Below, one piece after another: positions 1 through 5,499 of a stretch of 5,806 nt of DNA. The DNA comes from Methanosarcinales archaeon (GTDB lineage Archaea > Halobacteriota > Methanosarcinia > Methanosarcinales > Methanogasteraceae): contig DTYY01000291.1 in NCBI GenBank assembly GCA_012961645.1, positions 1 through 5,806 of the forward strand. Reading direction: 5' to 3'. Position numbers and translations under genes: made by a program. The notes beneath the pieces were generated by a model that saw only the letters and a list, made by a program, of their open reading frames with translations, searched no databases and was not told where the DNA came from. Each line of letters begins with the position of its first letter. The stretch's first letter is position 1.

Positions 1-140
1 AGAAGAAAAATGGCGTTGTCTCGCATGTTGGTATCTATCTAGGAGGAGGCAACTTTATTCATGCTAGTTCTGGTGCTGTTGCCGGTATCCAGAACAACAT
101 CGCCAATGGATATCACATTGCTCTGTGCTGCCAACCCTGA
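1..140 (+). CDS. NlpC/P60-family hydrolase, C-terminal end (5' part outside window)
   Basis: An open frame enters from the left edge (first full codon at base 3) and ends at TGA 138-140, giving 45 residues. It contains VSHVGIYLGGGNFIHASSG, the signature of the second half of an NlpC/P60 papain-like domain: the catalytic His in SHVGIY (codon 24-26), then the glycine turn and FIHA, whose His (60-62) is at the usual third polar position. The catalytic Cys would lie upstream, outside the window. Family members are usually secreted peptidoglycan or pseudomurein-type peptidases or related amidases; in archaea the substrate is often unclear. The tail after HASSG, ending in CCQP, does not resemble the usual NlpC/P60 C-terminus and overlaps a plausible minus-strand secreted ORF, so the gene may have been truncated or joined to other DNA near base 70. 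It converges on the hdr operon. The domain is fairly sure; intactness is not. Confidence 0.68.
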   Translation, partial: KKNGVVSHVGIYLGGGNFIHASSGAVAGIQNNIANGYHIALCCQP

Positions 141-347: not shown

Positions 348-3300
348 TTACGCAGCCGTCATCTCGCCTGACGCACCCTCTTTTACGTCTGCAAACGCCA
401 TGATCGACTTAAGCATCATATCGATCGTGAAGTGCTGCGCTGTGATCGCGTTTGCCGGACATGCAGAGGCGCATGATCCGCAGCCCTTGCAGAGCGTCGG
501 GTTGATCTCTGACTTCTTGGTGGTGTAGGTGATCTCCTCAACCGTCACGGTGACGTCCTTTAAGGATGGTGCCTCATACGGACAGACCGTGACACAGGTC
601 CCGCAACCGATGCAACGTTCAGGATCGACCACGCTTATATTACCCATCGTCTCGAGCGTATCTCTGGTGAGGATGGTGCACGCCCTTGATGCAGCACCTG
701 AAGCCTGCGACACCGACTCATCAATGAGCTTTGGCGCCTGTGCGGTTCCGCAGAGGAAGACGCCGTCGGTCGCAAAGTCCACCGGTCTTAGCTTGATATG
801 CGCCTCAAGGAAGAAGTTGTTGTTTCCAAGCGGTACCTTGAACTGCTCAGAGAGCTCCACATTGGATTCTGGAGTCACCATCGGTGCACTCAGCACCACG
901 AGGTCTGCTGCGATCTCCACATCCCTGCCGAGCAGATGGTCGAATACGTTTACCACGCCATCGCCAACCTCGGGTTCCTGGTCCTCGGTGTATCGCATGA
1001 AGTAGACGCCGAGTTCCCTTGCCCTGATGTATAACTCCTCCCATACGCCGTACGTCCTGATATCCCGGTACAGCACATAGATGTTTGTTTCAGGACTTTC
1101 CTCCTTGATCCGGATCGCGTTCTTCATGGCGCTGATGCAGCAGACCCGTGAGCAGTACGGGCGTTCATCGTTTCTTCCGCCTGCGCACTGTATCATCACG
1201 ACCGTCCCTATATCCGCATCCAGACCCCTCTCAAGCATCTCCTCAAGCTGCAACTGGGTGACCACATTCTCGTACTTCCCATAAGAGAAGTAGCCCTCTG
1301 GCTCAAACTCGTGAGCGCCTGTTGCGATGACCGCAGCACCAAACTCGATCTCCTTGCCACCTGTTAGCGTTGCCCTGAAGTTGCCCATCGCACCCTCCAC
1401 ACTCTCCAGCATAGTTCCGGTGTACACGGTGACCTTTGGGTTACCCTCCACCTTGGTCACCATCTCGCTTAACACATCAGAGGCTCTCTGCCCGGTGTGC
1501 AGATTCTTAATGCTCCGTAACATGCCGCCGAGTTCTGGCTCCTTCTCGATAAGCGTCACCTCAAAGCCGTTGTTTGCGATATCGAGTGCGGCGGTCATAC
1601 CCGCGATACCTCCGCCGACCACCAGCGCCGACTTGGTGAGTGCGAGTTCCTGGGTGTAGAGCGGTTCTGCCAGACTCGATTTTGCGACTGCAATCCGCAC
1701 GATGTCCTTTGCCTTGACCGTCGCCTTCTCTGGCTCGTTCTGGTGCACCCATGAGCAGTGCTCCCTGATGTTTGCAAGCTCGAAGAGGAATGGATTGAGT
1801 CCTGCACTCCGGCAAGTCTCCTGAAACAGCGGTTCATGCGTTCTTGGAGTGCATGATGCGACCACAACCCGGTTGAGGTTGTGTTCCTTGATCATCTCCC
1901 CTATCCGCTCGTGAGAGTCTCCGCTGCACGCATAGACCTCTTCTTTGGAGACTACAACCCCCGGGAGCGTGTCCGCATACTCAACAACAGCAGGCACGTC
2001 CACGATATTGCCGATGTTGATACCGCATCTGCAGATCACGACACCGATTCTTGGTTTGTCCCCGTTCAGCGGCATCTCCTCTGGATATGTCTTCTTGGTC
2101 ACGAGTGTGCCCCGTACATCCGCAAGCATCGATCCTGCCTTGGCTGCCGCTCCGCTTGCGTCTGCCACGGTGTCAGGGATGTCTTTCGGACCCTGGATGG
2201 TGCCTGATGCAAAGATTCCAGGCACGCTCGTCTCGACCGGATTGGTCAGATCGGTCTTGATGTTCCCAAACTCGTCCAGCTCGATGCCAGCCATCTCAGC
2301 GAGCTTTCTGGTCTCTTCGGACGGAGTAAGCCCGATGGAGAGTACGATCATGTCGAACTCTTCACGTTCGATCGTTCCTTCCTCTGATTCGTACTTGACA
2401 TAGACATTGCCCGTCACTGGATCGATATCCACGCCGTTTGGTCTTGATCTGATATATCTGACGCCCGCATTCTTTGCTCTCTGATAGAACTCCTCAAATC
2501 CCTTCCCGAATGCTCTCACATCGATCACAAAGATCGTCATGTCCAGATCGGGTTCGTGTTCCTTTGCGACCATCGCCTCCTTGGTGGCGTACATGCAGCA
2601 GACCGCAGAACAGTACGGGTTGCCGATCTCAGGGTTCCTTGAACCGACGCACTGGATCCATGCGATGCGCTCTGGTCTTGTTCCGTCTTCAAGCTCGATA
2701 TGCCCACCTGTAGGACCTGAAGAACTGAGCATCCGTTCGAACTGCATCGACGTGATGACCTTCGGATTCTCGATATGGTACTGCTCCAGCCTGACCGGAT
2801 CAAATGGCTTGAATCCCGAGGTGAGGACGATCGCGCCAACCGGGATATTGATCAATTGATCCTTCTGCTCGTAATCAACAGCGCCTGCATCACATGCTTT
2901 CGCACAGTTGCCGCATTTGCCCTTGGTCAGGTACAGACAGTGTTCGGCATCGATTACCGCAATCTTTGGCACAGCCTGCGGGAACGGGAGATAGATCGCC
3001 TTGTGCTTCCCGAGCAGTTCGTTGTACTCATCAAGCACCTTCACAGGACACTTGGCAAAGCAGACCTCGCACCCGATACATTTGGTCTCGTCGATGTAAC
3101 GTGCCTTCTTGTTGACCGTGACCGTGAAGTTGCCTTCCTCGCCGCTGATCGCGTTCACATCGCAGTACGTCATCAGTTCGATGTTCGGGTGCCGCTCGGC
3201 ATCGACCAATTTTGGCGAAAGCGTACACATCGCACAGTCCATCGTCGGGAATGTCTTGTCAAGCTGGGACATCTTCCCGCCGATACTCGGTCCTGACTCG

Positions 3301-3404
3301 ATTAAGTACACCTTAATCCCGCTGTCTGCCAGATCCAGCGCCGACTGGATGCCCGCGATGCCGCCACCGATGACAGCCGCCGCACCGACCTTATCGCCAG
3401 CCAT
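348..3404 (-). CDS. hdrA: CoB-CoM heterodisulfide reductase subunit A, tandem two-module fusion
   Basis: This is the iron-sulfur flavoprotein that bifurcates or confurcates electrons in cytosolic Hdr complexes. It has 1018 residues, against roughly 650-670 for a usual HdrA. Module 1 (about 1-440): FAD-binding GGGIAG (13-18), an inserted ferredoxin domain with C109/C112/C115/C119 and C156/C164/C167/C171, and the HdrA-type cluster motif C252, C265, C269, C270 followed by K275. Module 2 (about 450-1018): a full HdrA N-terminal domain (CRCGINIGN at 458-466; C493, C518), FAD-binding GGGIAG (597-602), cluster motif C740, C751, C755, C756 with K761, and a C-terminal ferredoxin domain with C931/C934/C937/C941 and C972/C975/C978/C982. 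Module 1 lacks the N-terminal and C-terminal domains; module 2 lacks the inserted ferredoxin. The start is fixed by GGAGGTGA six nt upstream, inside hdrB; the ATG overlaps the hdrB stop (TAATG). The frame is unbroken and no key residue is obviously missing. Identity is secure; the mechanism of the fused form is inference. Confidence 0.95.
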   Translation of the reverse strand: MAGDKVGAAAVIGGGIAGIQSALDLADSGIKVYLIESGPSIGGKMSQLDKTFPTMDCAMCTLSPKLVDAERHPNIELMTYCDVNAISGEEGNFTVTVNKKARYIDETKCIGCEVCFAKCPVKVLDEYNELLGKHKAIYLPFPQAVPKIAVIDAEHCLYLTKGKCGNCAKACDAGAVDYEQKDQLINIPVGAIVLTSGFKPFDPVRLEQYHIENPKVITSMQFERMLSSSGPTGGHIELEDGTRPERIAWIQCVGSRNPEIGNPYCSAVCCMYATKEAMVAKEHEPDLDMTIFVIDVRAFGKGFEEFYQRAKNAGVRYIRSRPNGVDIDPVTGNVYVKYESEEGTIEREEFDMIVLSIGLTPSEETRKLAEMAGIELDEFGNIKTDLTNPVETSVPGIFASGTIQGPKDIPDTVADASGAAAKAGSMLADVRGTLVTKKTYPEEMPLNGDKPRIGVVICRCGINIGNIVDVPAVVEYADTLPGVVVSKEEVYACSGDSHERIGEMIKEHNLNRVVVASCTPRTHEPLFQETCRSAGLNPFLFELANIREHCSWVHQNEPEKATVKAKDIVRIAVAKSSLAEPLYTQELALTKSALVVGGGIAGMTAALDIANNGFEVTLIEKEPELGGMLRSIKNLHTGQRASDVLSEMVTKVEGNPKVTVYTGTMLESVEGAMGNFRATLTGGKEIEFGAAVIATGAHEFEPEGYFSYGKYENVVTQLQLEEMLERGLDADIGTVVMIQCAGGRNDERPYCSRVCCISAMKNAIRIKEESPETNIYVLYRDIRTYGVWEELYIRARELGVYFMRYTEDQEPEVGDGVVNVFDHLLGRDVEIAADLVVLSAPMVTPESNVELSEQFKVPLGNNNFFLEAHIKLRPVDFATDGVFLCGTAQAPKLIDESVSQASGAASRACTILTRDTLETMGNISVVDPERCIGCGTCVTVCPYEAPSLKDVTVTVEEITYTTKKSEINPTLCKGCGSCASACPANAITAQHFTIDMMLKSIMAFADVKEGASGEMTAA

Positions 3405-4294
3405 TACTGTTCACCTCCGATCTTCTTCAGAAATTCATCGTTCTTAATGTAATTCATATCAATTCCCATCTCCTCCGGCGTAAAGCCCATCGAAAGCCCG
3501 AGCAGTTGGGAGTAATGCAGTACAGGCAGATTATACTCTCTTCCAAACTTCTTTGCAATCTCTGTCTGCCCAACGTCCAGTTCCAGATGACAGAACGGAC
3601 AAGCATCCACGAAACAGTCAGCCCCTGCCGCGACCGCATGCTGTACCTTTGCCTCAGCCATCTGCAATGCTGTCTCAAGCACTGCGGTTCTTGCACCGCC
3701 ACCCGCACCGCAGCACGCAAGTTTATCCTCGTAATCGATCGACTCCGCACCAACCGCTTCCACCAGTTCATCAAAGAATCTGGGATTCTCAACGCTTCCG
3801 AGATGCCGTTCCTTGGATGGCTTGATCAGGTGGCATCCATAATGCACAGCAACCTTCAGGTCGACTGGCTTGACCACCGCCTCTTTGATCTTGTCGACAC
3901 CGACATCGCGGTGCAGAAACTCTATGATATGCCGCACAGCTATGGTCCCCTTGAACTCGTGCCCGATCTCCTTTAAAACCTTGTTCACCTCCGCCCTCAA
4001 CTTCTCATCTTCCTTTAGGAGGTTGTTGGCATCCACAAGAGAGCCGAAGCAGCCGTTGCAGACCGTCAGCAGATCATAGCCCAGTTCTTCTGAGAGAACG
4101 ACGTTTCGTGCAGCCATCGCAAGCCACGTGGCTTTGTCAAATGATCGAAAAACTCCGGGCGCAGGACAGCAGCTTGCACCGGGCAGTTCCACGAGTTCGA
4201 CGTCCAGTTTCGCAAGAGTTTGTTTCGTAGCGATCTCGATGCCCGGATATCGGTTGGGCATTATACACCCGAGAAAAAATGATAATGTTGGCAT
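3404..4294 (-). CDS. hdrB: CoB-CoM heterodisulfide reductase subunit B
   Basis: HdrB reduces the CoM-S-S-CoB heterodisulfide (or runs the reverse reaction in methane oxidisers) at two non-cubane [4Fe-4S] clusters. Taking the ATG at 4294 gives 296 residues, the usual size. Both CCG domains are complete: C10, C42-C43, C79 and C82 in the first; C154, C194-C195, C232 and C235 in the second. The start MPTLSFFLGCIMPNRYPGIE matches the characteristic HdrB N-terminus. An in-frame GTG at 4303 would add three residues, but AAGGAG (4308-4303) would then overlap the start codon; with ATG 4294 the spacing is 8 nt, so I prefer the ATG. It follows the hdrC stop by 5 nt, and its own TAA overlaps the hdrA ATG by one base, indicating translational coupling. 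Because all cluster ligands are kept, catalytic function is likely, although the exact disulfide substrate cannot be read from sequence. Confidence 0.95.
   Translation of the reverse strand: MPTLSFFLGCIMPNRYPGIEIATKQTLAKLDVELVELPGASCCPAPGVFRSFDKATWLAMAARNVVLSEELGYDLLTVCNGCFGSLVDANNLLKEDEKLRAEVNKVLKEIGHEFKGTIAVRHIIEFLHRDVGVDKIKEAVVKPVDLKVAVHYGCHLIKPSKERHLGSVENPRFFDELVEAVGAESIDYEDKLACCGAGGGARTAVLETALQMAEAKVQHAVAAGADCFVDACPFCHLELDVGQTEIAKKFGREYNLPVLHYSQLLGLSMGFTPEEMGIDMNYIKNDEFLKKIGGEQ
3411..3418 (-). promoter_or_regulatory. hdrA ribosome-binding site inside hdrB
   Basis: On the minus strand GGAGGTGA lies within the last codons of hdrB and ends 6 nt before the hdrA ATG. It is close to a perfect anti-Shine-Dalgarno match, indicating independent strong initiation on hdrA in addition to coupling through the TAATG overlap. 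Confidence 0.8.
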
Positions 4295-4299
4295 GATAC

Positions 4300-4818
4300 T
4301 CACTCCTTGGTCAATTCATCGAATTTTGTTATTCCGATCAGCTTACGCACTTCTTCCAGACTTTCAGGGAACCTGTGCACCGTGTATGGCAGTTCCTCGA
4401 GCCCAAGTTTCTTGCGCTTCTCTTTGGCGTCATCATTTATCGGCACCGCATGTCCATGTTGAATTACAAGTTGTGCCACAGCCCTGTGCTTCGGCAGCAT
4501 GATCCCGTTCTTGACTGCAATGGTGCGTATCTTCAGCATGGCATCCACGTTCTGCACACCCTGCGGACAGCGTTCCTGACACTTGTAGCAGGTGGTACAG
4601 TACCAGATATAAGGATTGTTGAGCACCTCGTCCTTCATCCCGAGACTCGCCATCCTGAGAATCTTTCTGATGTTGTACTGCGCCTCCAGATTTGCCATTG
4701 GGCAGCCCGCGGTACATCCGGTACAGTTGAAGCACAGAACGATCCTCTCAGCACCTGGCTCTTCTCCGATCTCTTTTATGAAATCATGATCCAAATCGGC
4801 TGTTTTTATCGTATCCAT
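4300..4818 (-). CDS. hdrC: CoB-CoM heterodisulfide reductase subunit C
   Basis: HdrC is the small ferredoxin-like subunit carrying electrons between HdrA and HdrB in the cytosolic complex. The 172-residue product has two classical [4Fe-4S] motifs, C29-x2-C32-x2-C35-x3-C39P and C74-x2-C77-x2-C80-x3-C84P, separated by a helical segment, followed by the alpha-helical C-terminal half (HRAVAQLVIQHGHAVPIND, about 111-129) typical of the family. There are no membrane segments, consistent with the soluble HdrABC type rather than membrane-bound HdrDE. The ATG at 4818 is preceded by AAAAAAGGAGG with a 10-nt spacer, a strong archaeal ribosome-binding site. It is the first gene of the tight hdrCBA block and lies 267 nt downstream of mvhD; the gap may contain its own promoter or a processing site. 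Confidence 0.94.
   Translation of the reverse strand: MDTIKTADLDHDFIKEIGEEPGAERIVLCFNCTGCTAGCPMANLEAQYNIRKILRMASLGMKDEVLNNPYIWYCTTCYKCQERCPQGVQNVDAMLKIRTIAVKNGIMLPKHRAVAQLVIQHGHAVPINDDAKEKRKKLGLEELPYTVHRFPESLEEVRKLIGITKFDELTKE
4303..4308 (-). promoter_or_regulatory. hdrB ribosome-binding site (decides the start)
   Basis: AAGGAG on the minus strand, at the 3' end of hdrC, sits 8 nt before the ATG at 4294. It overlaps the alternative in-frame GTG at 4303-4301 and therefore argues against that start. Confidence 0.75.
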
Positions 4819-5085: not shown

Positions 5086-5499
5086 TCACGTCGTATTCAG
5101 CGGACTTGGTCCGATCTTCCTGATCTCTTCGGTGAAGTCGCTGACGACCTCTGCAAAGCGGGATCCCTCGCTTGCAGATACCCACTCAAGGCGCAGTCTG
5201 TTATCCAGTCCCAGACGCTTGAGTGCTTCCTTGGTGTTCTTGATCCTTACCTCGGCATTCACATTCCCTTCGAGATAATGACAGTCTCCGATGTGGCAGC
5301 CCATAACCAACACACCATCGACTTTGTCCTTGAACGCCTCAAAGATGAATGCAGGTTCGATCCGTCCGGAGCACATCACCCTGATGATCCGGATGTTTGG
5401 TGGATACTGGATCCGGCTGACCCCGGCAAGGTCAGCCCCGGCGTACGAACACCAGTTACAGCAGAACGCCAGTATGCTTGGTTCAAATTCTTCGGTCAT
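5086..5499 (-). CDS. mvhD: MvhD/FlpD-type [2Fe-2S] adaptor subunit
   Basis: MvhD is the small iron-sulfur protein that connects an electron-delivering enzyme ([NiFe] hydrogenase MvhAG, formate dehydrogenase or an F420-dependent subunit) to HdrA. From ATG 5499 the product has 137 residues, the normal length. It starts MTEEFEPSILAFCCNWCSYA, the family hallmark, with C14 and C17 of CNWC, C43 in RVMCSG, and C68 and C73 in GCHIGDCHY, which together supply the [2Fe-2S] ligands; C13 is an extra cysteine. The frame is open 54 codons further upstream, to an ATG at 5661, but that extension is unlike any MvhD, and GAGGT (5511-5507) lies 7 nt before ATG 5499, so I take the shorter start. It is the first gene of the cluster in the window, and no hydrogenase or formate dehydrogenase gene accompanies it. 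The symbol denotes the family; the true partner is unknown. Confidence 0.93.
   Translation of the reverse strand: MTEEFEPSILAFCCNWCSYAGADLAGVSRIQYPPNIRIIRVMCSGRIEPAFIFEAFKDKVDGVLVMGCHIGDCHYLEGNVNAEVRIKNTKEALKRLGLDNRLRLEWVSASEGSRFAEVVSDFTEEIRKIGPSPLNTT

Follow-up and report, generated by a model that had tools for sequence, protein, structure and literature searches.

The proposal for HdrABC dimers is that a mobile arm, made of the N- and C-terminal domains of one HdrA, works on the flavin of its partner HdrA, with the high-potential electron exiting via HA4' to the heterodisulfide, the low-potential electron passing from HA3 of the arm to HA5', and the inserted ferredoxin as the expected way out (PMC12350162; this and the other papers named by accession are cited from part of their text). 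Cys197 has been described as a ligand lent by one HdrA to the N-terminal domain (N-domain) cluster of the other (PMC9012536). Two HdrA modules can also be fused in one chain, and the window studied here, the entire 5806-base contig DTYY01000291.1 (C291) of a 1.66 Mb Methanosarcinales genome with 82% completeness, encodes such a fused HdrA of 1018 residues. Its two modules probably fold as an asymmetric pseudo-dimer with one complete bifurcating circuit, which in anaerobic methanotrophic (ANME) archaea would likely be confurcating.

The fusion itself, whose novelty an earlier note on this DNA had left uncertain, is already in the literature (PMC9012536, PMC12054007, PMC11237513, PMC9430772), and the window protein is a real, ordinary case of that kind. 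What is added here is the reading as one circuit and the residue survey behind it; no prior statement of this reading was found in the literature searched, whose scope did not extend to most subscription papers, including the structure papers of 2017 and 2021 and a review on HdrA from 2021.

The HdrA3 and HdrA4 proteins of ANME archaea, with complementary loss of Cys197 and the N-domain (PMC9012536), and type II HdrA (PMC12054007) share with the window protein a two-module chain of about 1000 residues, HdrBC and MvhD neighbours, an inserted ferredoxin in the A6-like half, and an N-domain plus C-terminal ferredoxin in the A12-like half. The type II/HdrA3 traits of the chain are present in the window protein: two thioredoxin-reductase-type domains binding flavin adenine dinucleotide (FAD) in one chain, an A6-like N-terminal half, an A12-like C-terminal half, complementary Cys197 and N-domain, and counterparts of E356 and K409 in both modules, which 75% of type II sequences are reported to have. 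With two such FAD domains, the protein lacks the type I trait of a single one per chain. PMC9012536 as printed (section 15) assigns the N-domain to the N-terminal half of HdrA3/4 and Cys197 to the C-terminal one, the reverse of the window and 227 relatives; since these relatives have the window's order, we read the printed order as a slip or a different convention. No NCBIfam HdrA model scored above its cut-off over the fused HdrA, the best being NF040770 with 994.9 of 1100 bits.

Other described systems resemble the fusion in part. The domains, clusters and flavin residues checked in the Methanothermococcus HdrABC-MvhAGD complex (5odc) and the Elp-Hdr complex (8rvu, 8rwn) have counterparts in it, but those structures contain one HdrA per chain and two equal copies in the dimer, whereas the fusion has two unequal modules, one arm and one inserted ferredoxin. 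The HdrAs of the Sporomusa ovata and Moorella thermoacetica MetVF-Hdr complexes also have two HdrA-type flavin domains; however, the S. ovata protein lacks an inserted ferredoxin and keeps the Glu/Lys pair in its first flavin domain only, the Moorella protein has a GltD insertion, and the partners of both are MetVF (PMC9430772). Two fused HdrA domains are likewise found in the Asgard/TACK HdrA duplications, 17 of 54 of which have MvhD fused at the C-terminus (PMC11237513). Among the loci fetched from relatives (handles beginning with L), two from bacterial metagenome-assembled genomes encode fused HdrAs of 1477 and 1495 residues (L053:9995-14428 and L041:2552-7039), in which a second oxidoreductase domain (Pyr_redox_2, Fer4_20) is inserted in module 1; L053 retains the Glu/Lys pair of module 2, which L041 has lost. 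We rejected these as a new giant HdrA, as their layout matches the published Moorella HdrA (PMC9430772); HdrL, a fusion of HdrA with glutamate synthase, has been known since 2009 (PMC2702500).

Anatomy and conservation of the fused chain

The gene runs on the minus strand from an ATG at 3404 to a stop at 348 without interruption, and its parts, all on that strand, are as follows.

348..3404, minus strand: fused hdrA (type II/HdrA3-like), 1018 residues, identified from its open reading frame, domains, solved HdrA structures and relatives
2112..3404, minus strand: module 1, residues 1-431, FAD core with inserted ferredoxin, without N-domain and C-terminal ferredoxin (superposition on 8rwn_A)
3225..3236, minus strand: Cys57 to Cys60, with Cys60 as the Cys197 equivalent and predicted fourth ligand of the module 2 N-domain cluster (gapless alignment to 5odc_A)
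2877..3095, minus strand: inserted ferredoxin, residues 104-176, eight cysteines, predicted ferredoxin exit (cysteine pattern, alignments)
2736..2738, minus strand: Glu223 of module 1, the E356 equivalent (5odc_A alignment; Glu in 258 of 258 rows)
2580..2651, minus strand: module 1 thioredoxin-reductase-domain cluster Cys252/265/269/270 with Lys275, the K409 equivalent (alignments)
2052..2120, minus strand: linker, residues 429-451 (22-23 residues long in 218 of 228 rows, window counted)
1650..2057, minus strand: N-terminal HdrA domain, residues 450-585, Cys458/460/493, half of the predicted arm (alignments)
651..1649, minus strand: module 2 FAD domain, residues 586-918, without inserted ferredoxin and without Cys197 (domain search, alignment, superposition)
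1122..1187, minus strand: module 2 cluster Cys740/751/755/756 with Lys761 (cysteine pattern, relatives)
435..632, minus strand: C-terminal ferredoxin, residues 925-990, eight cysteines, half of the predicted arm (domain search, relatives)

The earlier note had described a single unbroken frame with two FAD motifs, two cysteine motifs each followed by a lysine, and complementary domain losses, and all of this was confirmed. The GxGxxG motifs begin at residues 13 and 597, the two cysteine motifs and their lysines stand exactly where they had been placed, and the cysteine sets of the inserted ferredoxin (109-171) and of the C-terminal ferredoxin (931-982) each occur once per chain. Against the HdrA of M. 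thermolithotrophicus (5odc_A), residues 449-623 match its N-terminus, residues 8-374 the core that contains the inserted ferredoxin, and residues 862-1002 its C-terminal part with the ferredoxin. Counting positions along this alignment, Glu223 corresponds to E356 and Lys275 to K409, which bears out the suspected likeness of module 1 to the Methanothermococcus flavin site; the correspondence of Cys60 with Cys197 is a feature that the note had not mentioned. The roles of Cys197, E356 and K409 are described in PMC9012536 and PMC12054007. The two FAD domains are 33-36% identical over their two longest aligned stretches, and module 2 also has a glutamate, Glu721, so that the window holds the pairs Glu223/Lys275 and Glu721/Lys761. 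In an alignment of the modules, the inserted-ferredoxin columns contain 68-76 residues in 29/29 module 1 rows and none in 29/29 module 2 rows, and the Cys197 column has Cys in 0/29 module 2 rows. An inserted ferredoxin in module 2, which would have contradicted the complementary losses, is therefore absent.

Conservation was assessed in the 227 of 353 fetched proteins that are 930-1100 residues long (3 of them without their first residues), leaving aside the 120 matches found with module 1 and, among those found with module 2, 6 shorter rows; the protein sets consist of the best 120 of about 8000 matches in each listing, ranked by closeness to the window, and under-sample distant bacteria. These 227 relatives align end to end with an identical order of cysteines. 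Cys60 is Cys in 226 and falls in a gap in one, the inserted-ferredoxin cysteines and both cluster sets are Cys in 227/227, Cys458, Cys460 and Cys493 of the N-domain are Cys in 226, 227 and 227, and the C-terminal-ferredoxin cysteines are kept in at least 225.

The predicted fold of the chain, with a predicted local distance difference test (pLDDT) score of 88.7 and a predicted template modelling (pTM) score of 0.89, fits a division of labour between modules into arm and core. Residues 4-431 of the model superpose on residues 149-576 of the arm-less HdrA core chain 8rwn_A (1.6 Å over 420 residues), and residues 449-1009 on the whole HdrA of 5odc_A (2.5 Å over 550 residues). Together with the alignments, these superpositions support as a likely reading the asymmetric pseudo-dimer that the earlier note had put forward.

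A probable single circuit per chain, and the alternatives

Overall, the chain holds one arm (N-domain plus C-terminal ferredoxin), located in module 2, one full core in module 1 (FAD motif, Cys-rich cluster motif, inserted ferredoxin and Cys60), and one partial core in module 2 (FAD and cluster motifs only). In the proposed mechanism, MvhD and the module 2 arm would hand electrons to the module 1 FAD, from which the high-potential electron would pass through the Cys252-270 cluster to HdrC/HdrB and the disulfide of coenzyme M (CoM) and coenzyme B (CoB), and the low-potential electron would reach ferredoxin by way of first the C-terminal and then the inserted ferredoxin. With Cys60, module 1 would supply the last ligand of the module 2 N-domain cluster, tying the arm to the core that it serves. 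The donor or acceptor on the MvhD side might be F420, via an FdhB-like protein encoded elsewhere, a guess from the gene neighbours of relatives. The whole route might also run in reverse, as confurcation in ANME archaea, the direction suggested for them in PMC9012536. Module 1 most likely holds the bifurcating flavin, because in the rows surveyed loss of the Glu/Lys pair described below is confined to module 2; the module 2 FAD, which has neither an arm to serve it nor a ferredoxin exit, most likely has a structural role or acts as a relay.

The Glu/Lys survey comprised 258 rows, namely the 227 relatives and 31 rows from loci (21 from named records and 10 from family genomes); neither L041 and L053 nor cut or unfused HdrAs are among them, and some rows from ANME-2c loci probably duplicate rows of the protein sets. 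The incomplete L032_0 and L037_0 were counted where letters exist and left out of the tree, and the six words used for the genome scan contain none of the four counted residues. Both residues of module 1 are intact in 258/258 rows. In module 2, the Lys is changed in 16 rows, all of which retain GxGxxG, and the Glu in 18, of which 12 have Asp. On a quick tree with 59 rows, parts of which have weak support, at least six changes are required for the module 2 Lys and at least seven for the Glu. In the module alignment, 11/16 bacterial rows are changed at the module 2 Glu or Lys and 2/4 Asgard rows at the module 2 Glu. Across 34 paired control positions, total change is about equal in the two modules (276 and 272), and the loss of the module 2 pair is therefore not explained by a faster-evolving module. 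Proteins of A6 length, some of which are perhaps fragments of fused proteins, keep the pair in 57/57 rows. That the second flavin should be free to change is a prediction of the one-circuit proposal, and in the sequences surveyed it is borne out. A second HdrA on a Peptococcaceae contig (L039 13328-15307), cut by the edge of the fetched locus and perhaps fused, has an N-domain and module 2 with the flavin pair changed from Lys to Arg and from Glu to Gly.

Several points weigh against a single circuit. The window and 120/120 of its nearest relatives keep Glu/Lys in both modules, which leaves room for bifurcation by the second flavin in this lineage. The suggestion of the earlier note that one FAD bifurcates and the other relays gains support across the family, as loss of the pair in the rows surveyed is confined to module 2, although the window itself keeps both pairs. 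Single positions relax in one module in both directions (0 vs 25 for Gly254/742, 42 vs 0 for Glu304/789), and the module 2 cluster cysteines hardly vary, which points to a role for the site. The Cys60 loop is poorly modelled (mean pLDDT 56 for residues 51-60), and the crossed ligand therefore rests on alignment. The arm mechanism is itself a proposal of structural papers, no biochemistry exists for type II HdrA according to PMC12054007, and tests of ferredoxin or NAD(P) co-reduction were negative for the S. ovata HdrA, which has no inserted ferredoxin (PMC9430772).

Two bifurcations per chain, serial or parallel, have been proposed for type II HdrA (PMC12054007) and, in a like proposal reported by PMC9430772, for the HdrA homologue of Geobacter benzoyl-CoA reductase, and are favoured by the retention of both pairs in the window and its 120 nearest relatives. 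Yet an inserted ferredoxin is missing from module 2 and an arm from module 1, which leaves the second flavin without the known entry and exit, and pair loss among the 258 rows is confined to module 2; we consider two bifurcations unlikely, though a serious contender. Pairing in trans with a second HdrA, either the type I HdrA of an FdhB/FdhA cluster or another fused copy, in a larger working unit, is rather improbable. Such a type I HdrA-MvhD-FdhB-FdhA-like cluster (FdhB and FdhA named from resemblance by eye) does lie beside the fused one in L058, and on other contigs in L082 and L083 (family genomes G013 and G002; G denotes the 17 genomes of the window's family), and published clusters join HdrA2 and HdrA3 (PMC9012536). 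However, the fused cluster stands alone in the same-genus relative (L028, L073), and one chain contains a complete set of parts. An assembly join of two neighbouring hdrA genes, which the earlier note had named as a danger, could draw on the split A6/A12-like gene pair known in three relatives, but 227 relatives are fused in the identical order, a full-length open fused frame is present in 12/17 family genomes (a piece in 3 more, none in 2), and the same-genus genome G013 (L073) has the whole fusion at 89% identity, all of which makes a join vanishingly unlikely.

Returning to a single circuit, there is in our view an even chance that fused HdrAs are minimal bifurcators, in which fusion let evolution drop one of two crossed circuits: the module 2 arm would drive the module 1 flavin, and the freed second flavin would decay repeatedly in bacteria or take on a new task in ANME archaea. 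If so, "two flavins, two bifurcations" would be wrong for the fused HdrA family, and the fusion would be nature's own proof of an arm that works across the dimer. The domain losses, combined with the arm-across-dimer mechanism, single out a likely bifurcating flavin and predict which residues can be lost. This bears on whether a two-flavin HdrA bifurcates once or twice, and where, and on how CoM-SH/CoB-SH and ferredoxin are re-oxidised in ANME archaea.

Origin of the fusion and the split pair

The earlier note had left open whether the modules stem from tandem duplication or from two paralogues, and trees answer this in part. In a quick tree of 85 rows, the module 1 rows join A6-length HdrAs and those of module 2 join the C-half of the split pair, each with a support of 100 in the Shimodaira-Hasegawa-like approximate likelihood ratio test (SH-aLRT), and ordinary type I and Ia HdrAs fall outside both groups. 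The long-branched row L052_2, labelled A12-like, was placed among the type I rows instead. A tandem duplication in the form of a clade of the fused modules and the split pair alone was weakly rejected by the approximately unbiased (AU) test (p 0.034), the group having been named after the tree was seen. A clade that adds the A6-length rows has a support of 9 and is neither shown nor rejected. Holding the fused rows together as one clade gave AU p 0.69 for module 1 and 0.71 for module 2, and these trees scored above the free quick tree; a single origin of the fusion is thus not rejected by these tests, in line with the one old fusion concluded in PMC12054007.

The split pair occurs in three family genomes (G007, G014 and G016) as a 433-residue A6-like gene followed by an A12-like gene, which has 602 and 598 residues in two of them and runs off the contig in G014. 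A fused copy comes after the split pair in G007 and G016, where the full-length fused frame is 61-62% identical to that of the window. At the junction, a TAG is followed at once by an ATG in the same frame, with GGAGGTG upstream (motif found by eye), in 3/3 loci (L066 8146-8148, L064 17036-17038, L067 8177-8179). Given this ATG and GGAGGTG, readthrough of the TAG as pyrrolysine was rejected, no search aimed at pyrrolysine genes having been made. To judge from its sequence, the split pair resembles an unfused version of the fused hdrA in the window, and a forerunner and a late fission would both be compatible with the tree. On contig C45 of G007, the orthologue of the window's hdrA looks interrupted (L064 5376-7466, L065 3844-6077) by about 16 kb with a second Hdr cluster, leaving the N-domain, module 2 and MvhD on one side and HdrB and HdrD on the other; this looks like an insertion or a misassembly.

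Neighbouring genes and host genome

On the minus strand, the window has the gene order mvhD-hdrC-hdrB-hdrA, in which hdrC and hdrB overlap by 4 bases and hdrB and hdrA by 1 base. Besides the fused hdrA, the window contains the following genes.

3404..4303, minus strand: hdrB, 299 residues (TIGR03288, 468.8 bits, cut-off 345.15)
4300..4818, minus strand: hdrC, 172 residues (TIGR03290, 188.1 bits, cut-off 160)
5086..5499, minus strand: mvhD/flpD, 137 residues from a conserved ATG (PF02662, 182.2 bits; start set against L028)
3-137, plus strand: NlpC/P60 domain gene truncated at the contig end, with its C-terminal part remaining (PF00877, 24.2 bits, cut-off 23)

The same four-gene order is found in G013, where the fused HdrA is complete. 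Eight genomes of other genera (L058-L063, L070, L071) have the order HdrD-HdrC-HdrB-HdrA-MvhD, with one outer gene cut by the contig end in each of L070 and L071; the name HdrD reflects weak BLAST matches to HdrC/HdrB. The mvhD gene thus lies upstream of hdrC in the window and in L028/L073, whereas in the sister genera the HdrD-like gene leads and mvhD comes downstream of the fused hdrA; no HdrD was found around the L028 and L073 clusters. The locus differs from the published HdrA3/type II clusters in having no FdhB or molybdopterin gene: there is no such open reading frame in the window, whose end is 307 bases above mvhD, and tblastn with the FdhB- and FdhA-like queries of L058 found neither in the 18.9 kb around the L028 cluster.

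The window's genome gave no match to McrA (TIGR03256). This is most likely a gap, because 10/17 family genomes have an McrA match (7 above the cut-off) and the genome is 82% complete, and an organism free of Mcr was rejected on the same grounds. Near matches to the fused HdrA carry the names Methanogaster or ANME-2, and, judged by these, the window organism is apparently a relative of the methane-oxidising ANME-2c archaea.

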